Assembly (NCBI GenBank): GCA_024401865.1
Contig: JAKSKI010000006.1
Coordinates: 1-49,895 of the forward strand
Reading direction: 5' to 3'
Length of the DNA stretch: 49,895 nucleotides
Source of the DNA: Bacteroidales bacterium
GTDB lineage: Bacteria > Bacteroidota > Bacteroidia > Bacteroidales > UBA932
Shown here: piece after piece, positions 48,369 to 49,895 of the stretch
Numbering within the stretch: the stretch's first letter is position 1
How the letters are laid out: every line of letters begins with the position of its first letter
Position numbers and translations under genes: made by a program
Notes under the pieces: model-generated
Told to the model about the DNA's origin: nothing
Database searches by the model: none
What the model saw: the letters and a program-made list of their open reading frames with translations, nothing else

Positions 48369-48956
48369 CTACACGTATATTCCGCTGCGACGCCAGTGGA
48401 CCAGACCGATGACGGCGGATACAACGTAGCAGGCGTAAAGCAGGGACATCCACCAGTCTCCCTGGCTGGCAAACAGATATACGGTCACGATGTCGGCGGC
48501 AATCCAGAGGTGCCAGTTCTCGATGTGCGAATACGACAGCATCCAGGCGGCCAGGATGCTGAAGGAGAATGAGAGTCCGTCGGCAATCGGGGACGGGTCG
48601 TTTGTGAGGGAGAACAGCAGACATATCGCCGGAGTGCCGACAAGTCCGGCTGCGATGGCAGTGACGGATTCGCGCCGCGTGAGCTTCACAAGGTGCAGCT
48701 GGCCGCCGCTTTTGTGCTCCAGCTTTTTCCAGTTGACGATGCCGACCACCGACATGACTATGAAGTAGGCGTTGAGAATCACCTGGGCCCACAACGGACC
48801 CCAGACACCGTCATTGAAATTGGCGGCAGATACGATGAGGGCCGAGGTGCAGGTCAGGAGATTGAGGTACCACATCCACCTGTGCTGCACAACCTGCATG
48901 ATCATATAGATGACACCGGAGACCAGAGATATCAGCTGGATGCCTAACAAATCCAT
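48369..48956 (-). CDS. pnuC: Nicotinamide riboside transporter PnuC
   Basis: A 195-residue transporter with about seven membrane segments. Family marks are VVQHRWMWYLNLLTCTSALIV, AQVILNAYFIVMSVVGIVNW, and IENWHLWIAADIVTVYLFASQGDW (the WxxW-type substrate site near the C-terminus). It facilitates nicotinamide riboside uptake, driven by later phosphorylation. Some Bacteroidota PnuC-like proteins (PnuT) carry thiamine instead, but no TPP riboswitch or thi gene is seen here. Confidence 0.9.
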   Translation of the reverse strand: MDLLGIQLISLVSGVIYMIMQVVQHRWMWYLNLLTCTSALIVSAANFNDGVWGPLWAQVILNAYFIVMSVVGIVNWKKLEHKSGGQLHLVKLTRRESVTAIAAGLVGTPAICLLFSLTNDPSPIADGLSFSFSILAAWMLSYSHIENWHLWIAADIVTVYLFASQGDWWMSLLYACYVVSAVIGLVHWRRSGIYV

Positions 48957-48985
48957 ATTCAGGAAATTGCATTTGAAAAAGTGTG

Positions 48986-49013
48986 CAAAATTAATAATAT
49001 TTGACTATATTTG
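48986..49013. promoter_or_regulatory. Back-to-back -7 elements, pnuC / YegP-S1 gene
   Basis: TAATTTTG on the minus strand (48993-48986) and TATATTTG on the plus strand (49006-49013), separated by 12 bases. The plus side leaves a leader of about 70 bases containing a small hairpin. Confidence 0.55.
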
Positions 49014-49021
49014 CACGCTTT

Positions 49022-49038
49022 TGCGGATACCATCCGCA
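49022..49038 (+). promoter_or_regulatory. Leader hairpin upstream of the S1 fusion gene
   Basis: TGCGGAT-ACC-ATCCGCA, a perfect 7-bp stem with a three-base loop, about 10 bases after the -7 element and 50 bases before the ATG. It could be a 5' stabiliser or an autoregulation site for S1. Confidence 0.45.
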
Positions 49039-49088
49039 GGCTCAATACATAAAGTTTAACTACTAGTTTGTCTTTTTAACAACAATTA

Positions 49089-49895
49089 TGGCAAAATTTG
49101 AGATCAAGACCGCCAAAGACGGTCAGAATTATTTCAATCTCAAGGGCGAAGACGGCAAGGTCATCCTCACATCGGAGATGTACACCACCCTCAAGTCCTG
49201 CGAGAATGGAATCGCTTCAGTCAAGAAGAACGCTCCCATGGACGTCCGTTACGAGATGAAGCAGTCGGAAAGTGGCAAGTTCCACTTCAATCTGAAAGCC
49301 GGCAACCATCAGGTTATCGGTACAGGTATGAACTATGCAACTGAGGAAGAGGCCAAGGCAGCCCTTGAGGCAGTGAAGGCCGGTGCCGCAGATGCAGAGG
49401 TTGTTACAGTAGCTGAAGAGGAGATCAAGGAAGAGGCTCCCAAGGCTGAGAAGGCTCCCAAGGCCGAGAAAGTCGAAGAGGCTCCCAAGGCTGCTGCTGA
49501 GAAGGAAGTAAAGAAGTCTGCCCCCAAGGCAGAGAAAAAAGAAACCGGGATTGCAGCCCGCGTAAACGCATCCGTTGCACCCGAGGATTTCGATTGGGAT
49601 GCTTTCGAGAGCGGTGACGTATACGGTACCGCCGACAAGAAGGCTATCGACGAGGCTTATGACAAGACTCTCTCCAAGATTGTGGAGAATGAGGTTGTCG
49701 AGGGCGAGGTCACCGCTATCAACAAACGCGAAGTCGTTGTCACTATCGGTGGCAAGAGCGAAGGTGTCATAATGGCTCCCGAGTTCCGTTACAATCCCGA
49801 TCTGAAAGTCGGAGACAAGGTTGAGGTATACGTGGAGACTGCAGAGGACAAGAAAGGCCAGCTCGTGCTCAGCCACAAGAAGGCCCGCGCCCTCA
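49089..49895 (+). CDS. rpsA: YegP (DUF1508) tandem fused to 30S ribosomal protein S1 (partial)
   Basis: An open frame of 269 codons that runs off the right edge without a stop. Residues 3-49 and 53-98 are two DUF1508/YegP repeats (first: KFEIKTAKDGQNYFNL, ENGIASVKKNAP; second: GKFHFNLKAGNHQVIGTG). Residues 100-160 form an Ala/Lys/Glu/Pro linker with repeated APKAEK. From about 165 the sequence is the N-terminus of Bacteroidota ribosomal protein S1, including FDWDAFESG, VVEGEVTAINKREVVVTIGGKS, FRYNPDLKVGDKVEVYVE and LVLSHKKARA. No internal ATG lies between residues 82 and 228, so separate translation of S1 is unlikely. I know S1 as starting with the FDWDAF region, so the fusion is unusual. S1 binds mRNA on the 30S subunit. 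Confidence 0.88.

Follow-up and report, generated by a model that had tools for sequence, protein, structure and literature searches.

A tandem of two DUF1508 (YegP-type) repeats is joined in frame to the N-terminus of ribosomal protein bS1 in a genome of the Bacteroidales, and the fused architecture is, with near certainty, real in this genome. With slightly better than even confidence we propose, from the analysis of the gene and its relatives, that a YegP pair was copied once onto S1, where it would act as an accessory module tethered to the 30S subunit. YegP/DUF1508 is a widespread family of uncharacterised function that is here joined to a ribosomal protein. An earlier sequence-only reading of this DNA regarded the fusion as undescribed, and a full-text literature search found no publication pairing DUF1508 with ribosomal protein S1; most subscription papers were outside the reach of this search and could hold a passing mention.

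The fused gene and its locus

The window, that is, the whole stretch of 49,895 nucleotides that was analysed, carries on its forward strand a single uninterrupted frame (49088..49894), which runs from an ATG at 49088 to the window end and is still open at the contig edge. The sequence-only reading had set the start at 49089, one position off; its description of one frame made of two DUF1508 repeats, a linker and the start of S1 was confirmed by the frame itself, by Pfam (DUF1508, PF07411, 116.5 bits in two stretches against a cut-off, the gathering score, of 22; S1, 37.9 bits) and by NCBIfam, one of whose models for 30S ribosomal protein S1 is the top match of the window protein (residues 162-268). 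The linker, formerly described as 60 residues of Ala/Lys/Glu/Pro, is indeed rich in Ala, Lys and Glu (13 A, 13 E, 12 K and 4 P) and is 53 residues long; judged by this composition, it is probably disordered. The YegP tandem, fused in frame, was correctly placed next to the presumed ribosome-anchoring end of S1. The gene and its leader contain the following features:

49006..49013, + strand: -7 promoter box TATATTTG, read in the sequence, fits TAnnTTTG
49022..49038, + strand: leader hairpin TGCGGAT/ATCCGCA, from the sequence and a single-sequence fold
49054..49071, + strand: leader box GTTTAACTACTAGTTTGT, exact in 4/8 fused and 7/24 unfused leaders
49088..49894, + strand: 5' part of the DUF1508x2-bS1 gene (rpsA), from the frame, Pfam and NCBIfam; remainder on C50, another contig of this genome
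49112..49255, + strand: DUF1508 repeat 1, 71.1 bits
49268..49405, + strand: DUF1508 repeat 2, 56.7 bits; motif residues G92, I93, S95 and N99 replaced
49406..49564, + strand: Ala/Glu/Lys-rich linker of 53 residues, by composition; highest dN of the three regions
49565..49684, + strand: bS1 N-terminal segment (NASVAPEDFDWDAFE...), with the presumed role of uS2 anchor; identifiable in congeners with and without the fusion
49685..49879, + strand: S1 domain 1, 41.1 bits

In the window rpsA is cut because the window is an entire contig (C56 of genome G000, an assembly of 1.56 Mb in 77 contigs that is 83% complete) and the gene reaches the contig end. The sequence-only reading implied that S1 repeats continue past the window edge, and they do: the reverse strand of C50 (9883 bases) starts with the exact last 55 bases of the window and carries the window frame onward as a 492-residue open stretch with five S1 matches beyond the one in the window, after which comes an RNase Z gene. 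RNase Z lies 3' of S1 in 24 of 25 congeneric loci (6 fused, 18 unfused), the remaining one, in G202, being cut before this point. The exact 55-base overlap, the frame and the gene order agree, and thus support the joining of C56 to C50. The two full-length fused relatives that were scanned, G036 and G179, have six S1 domains each. The rpsA locus is orthologous among the congeners examined by its downstream RNase Z (24/25 loci) and by its promoter box (32/32 genes). In its NCBIfam match, its six repeats, its RNase Z locus and its promoter box the fused gene resembles the bS1 of other Bacteroidota (NF004953, PRK06299.1-3), from which it differs by the addition in front of a 106-residue DUF1508 tandem and a linker of 37-66 residues.

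A second rpsA, which the sequence-only reading had raised as a question, was sought in G000 and not found; the remaining S1-domain matches of this genome are PNPase, Tex and RNase R, and the idea of a second copy is not supported on these grounds, although at 83% completeness such an absence is not proof. With no separate rpsA found and the S1 repeats running on past the window edge, neither of the genomic findings that the sequence-only reading would have counted against the fusion was made. The fused genomes G179, G230 and G357 (96-97% complete) each have a single match to an S1 query, and G000 has two, the second of which is perhaps the C50 overlap. No DUF1508 match was obtained in G000 outside the fused gene.

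Distribution and origin of the fusion

The fusion was located in 8 of the 400 species sampled from the genus, the genome of the window included (G000, G036, G230, G304, G357, G202, G179 and G257; from the matches listed and three genomes read besides). In G202 the fused gene is interrupted by the end of its contig. The genus is apparently Candidatus Cryptobacteroides, and the fused species are gut bacteria, few in number and mostly known through metagenomes; Candidatus Cryptobacteroides equifaecalis is among them, and the sources of the fused-gene records include horse faeces and goat rumen. DUF1508 occurs in 86 of the 400 species and the S1 N-terminal query matches 362 of them, and a stand-alone DUF1508 copy is also present in four of the eight fused genomes, a point against the tethered module proposed here. 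A second draw from the genus fell within the genomes of the first, so no new species was counted; it yielded two borderline hits, with E-values of about 6e-4 and 9e-4, to frames of 624 and 616 residues in G259 and G284, respectively.

Among the best 80 loci of 410 relatives, seven are fused S1 genes (L134-L139, L143), the same as seven of the eight above. Two other long frames among these 80 loci, L187 and L181, were judged by eye not to be S1, one being a frame upstream of the gene and the other a run of N. No further S1 fusion was seen among the frames read in samples of 61 relatives, 395 genomes of the phylum and 393 genomes of the order, the frames read in the order and phylum being those outside G457, G436, G442, G1039, G1123 and G1050, with L080 and L081 inspected by eye only; in the 61-relative sample, long frames were found in G000 and G036 only. 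S1-length frames in G519 (664 and 756) and G677 (770) were rejected as S1 fusions, since they encode a trigger factor, NuoG and an OmpA protein. A wide spread of the S1 fusion is therefore not supported by the genus, order or phylum samples. Plasmid and phage sequences offered no close match: the 25 and 5 records, respectively, stay under 60% identity, and each covers less than 80% of the query.

In the same surveys, L079 (G677:C108) is a protein of 770 residues that combines several stretches of DUF1508 with an OmpA domain at its C-terminus. L078, L080 and L081 have DUF1508 matches within proteins of 900-1040 residues whose starts are alike; by eye we take them to resemble baseplate-type proteins, and a Pfam scan of L078 returned nothing besides DUF1508.

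The S1 N-terminal segment can be recognised whether or not a congener has the fusion. In the unfused congeners that were read, the S1 N-terminus is either short or extended by up to about 130 residues rich in Ala/Lys/Glu/Pro, without DUF1508; long extensions of this composition were observed in L116, L117, L120, L121 and L123-L125. As such extensions occur without DUF1508, the linker of the fusion is part of a fast-changing region that exists independently of the domain.

When 118 DUF1508 tandems were placed in a tree, the seven distinct fused sequences came out together (SH-aLRT 82, from 106 columns only). Their group adjoins the stand-alone copies of G112 and G036 and is separate from the one that holds most stand-alone copies of the genus. 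With this moderate support one fusion is likely, and the tree suggests that a single event drew on a second YegP paralog. The S1 tree (39 proteins, picked from the closest matches and the long frames, with G331, which is truncated, G109, below 500 residues, G237 and G012, below 300 residues, and the cut G202 left out) did not decide between one clade and a grade: the fused species require three state changes, no branch in any of 200 bootstrap trees sets them apart from the rest, and a single fused clade gave p=0.07 in an AU test. The patchiness of the S1 tree may mean that the domain is easily lost or moved. Both trees could be accounted for by a single gain with later losses, or by transfer.

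A tethered module or a passenger

In E. coli, S1 is attached to the ribosome by an N-terminal segment that folds on uS2 (PMC4288201). The corresponding segment is kept between the linker and domain 1 of the fused protein, which makes anchoring on uS2 plausible. We propose that a YegP paralog was copied once into rpsA, behind the leader and ahead of the S1 N-terminal segment; the YegP pair would then sit on a flexible leash, tethered to the 30S subunit at the predicted uS2 anchor, and could serve as the constitutive, ribosome-bound counterpart of the stand-alone YegP activity. It would probably contact a protein or a small ligand, and a stress-related role may be supposed by analogy with E. coli yegP, which is named as one of the stress-response hub genes in one study (PMC9501238); in another, E. 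coli YegP is called uncharacterized (PMC13373217). The fused pair resembles YegP/UPF0339 proteins (PF07411; PDB codes: 2k8e, 2k49) in its tandem of two DUF1508 repeats and scores 94.4 bits against E. coli YegP. It differs from them in being fused rather than stand-alone, in an A36K replacement found in all seven fused sequences compared, and in the loss of the repeat-2 motif in three of these.

The main rival to the 30S-tethered module, possible in our judgement without being probable, is that the pair is a passive appendage: a soluble domain gained by chance on the tolerant N-terminus of S1 and kept since misfolding or truncation would harm S1, with no ribosomal task. The free variation of the S1 N-terminus in the genus and the patchy occurrence of fused species on the S1 tree accord with this, as do the unrelated hosts of DUF1508 elsewhere (NuoG, trigger factor, amylase-like, OmpA) and the erosion of repeat 2, in which the motif G92, I93, S95, N99 is lost in three of the seven fused sequences compared (window, G257, G179). 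Repeat 2 of the window keeps 18 of 25 conserved sites (a conserved site being at least 80% conserved across 44 stand-alone rows), under the lowest stand-alone row, 19. The conserved sites of YegP are nevertheless mostly retained, contrary to what a passive appendage would lead one to expect: repeat 1 of the window keeps 17/20, the stand-alone rows having means of 19.3 (repeat 1) and 23.6 (repeat 2) and minima of 14 and 19, and four other fused sequences keep 19/20 and 22-25/25. Judged by these sites, the DUF1508 module is retained, with its second half changing in one subgroup.

Substitution patterns also speak against an idle passenger. Comparison of fused genes in seven overlapping pairs gives dN/dS values of 0.00, 0.12, 0.12, 0.11, 0.14, 0.29 and 0.10 for the DUF1508 part and of 0.02-0.10 for the S1 part, with synonymous sites near saturation in several pairs and only 45 S1 codons in those of G202. 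G304 and G230 differ at 0 of 106 DUF1508 residues despite a dS of 0.15. The linker has the highest dN of the three regions in all seven pairs; its dN/dS is 0.4 or less where computable, and since this ratio is also low and dS is near saturation, dN/dS alone is a blunt test. The DUF1508 part is under constraint and looks preserved by selection, from which it follows that an uncharacterised module probably rides on the ribosome.

Joined to S1, YegP amounts to a natural localisation experiment, as the domain must tolerate, and perhaps uses, a site beside uS2. The mRNAs of Bacteroidota are without Shine-Dalgarno sequences, for which S1 has been proposed, though not demonstrated, as the substitute (PMC6847099); the lack of these sequences lends special interest to a domain fixed to S1. 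The sequence-only reading suggested that the fusion could connect a YegP ligand with mRNA recruitment, a role that is hypothetical. If the pair is a passenger, the S1 N-terminus is shown to accept folded cargo in nature.

YegP-type proteins had been characterised in the sequence-only reading as small and stand-alone. Most are, yet trigger factor, NuoG, an amylase-like protein and an OmpA protein carry fused DUF1508 as well, and the pair of the window gene is likewise not a small stand-alone protein, for it shares the frame of S1 and no internal start separates the two. G519, another genome of this phylum, has a DUF1508 pair at the C-terminus of trigger factor and a second one at that of NuoG (L075, G519:C11; L076, G519:C178); G519 is the sole genome of its family sampled, so that both fusions rest on one genome. 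Similarly to the S1 fusion, these pairs are attached to the end of a housekeeping protein through an Ala/Pro-containing linker; they differ in their hosts and in being C-terminal, the pair on S1 being N-terminal. The occurrence of DUF1508 pairs on trigger factor and NuoG too makes them a portable appendage. Positions 356-405 (of 431) of the NCBIfam tryptophanyl-tRNA synthetase model PRK12284 (NF008923) match the DUF1508 of the window (E 9.6e-5), hence a curated model already includes a translation enzyme with a DUF1508-like end; this end is C-terminal there and N-terminal in the S1 fusion. No fusion of this kind was seen in 8 further genomes searched for DUF1508.

These attachments could be read more broadly, DUF1508 being a general tether-on module for translating ribosomes (e.g. 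sensing nascent chains, stress or ribosome state), whose joining to S1, trigger factor and a tRNA synthetase would reflect that role and which would here be a stoichiometric part of the 30S subunit. We regard this as unlikely. The three translation-related hosts are suggestive of a ribosomal role, but the others argue against a purely ribosomal one, and with hosts as varied as trigger factor, NuoG, amylase-like and OmpA proteins the S1 fusion need not be specific to translation.

Also unlikely is a co-expression device, in which a protease cleaves the linker, or S1 is also started internally, and the parts work separately. A linker of this length, charged and little conserved, would allow such a device, and some start-like codon lies beyond residue 96 in seven of the eight fused genes: G357 has an ATG two codons ahead of the S1 segment, and six more have an ATG or GTG after residue 96. 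A separate S1 is thus possible there. The stretch between residues 96 and 199 of the window gene, however, is free of ATG, GTG and TTG codons, start-like codons being absent from residue 97 to 20 residues beyond the start of the S1 segment, and an internal S1 start was rejected for this gene. That two adjacent genes were merged by an assembly artefact or in a pseudogene, as might be suspected of a gene inside which the window stops, is extremely improbable and was rejected, because the identical join recurs in seven other species (in five of them inside a contig 61-538 kb long), the RNase Z gene order matches and the sequence is constrained.

The rpsA leader

TAnnTTTG is the consensus of the -7 promoter box of Bacteroidota, and it is found at most 130 bases upstream of the start in all 32 congeneric rpsA genes (8 fused, 24 unfused). 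The core of the leader box, CTA(G/A)TT, is present in 8/8 fused and 17/24 unfused leaders. With the promoter box and the leader core kept in the fused genes, the fusion is read from the rpsA leader. The RNAalifold consensus was empty on 30 of the 32 leaders (G286 and G108 dropped), and Rfam, searched with 48500-49895, returned nothing at E-values of up to 1. By eye, a 5' hairpin occurs in many leaders, with a variable stem sequence. The rpsA leader (49006-49087 in the window) may be a conserved element of the genus, which could, speculatively, serve the autoregulation of S1.
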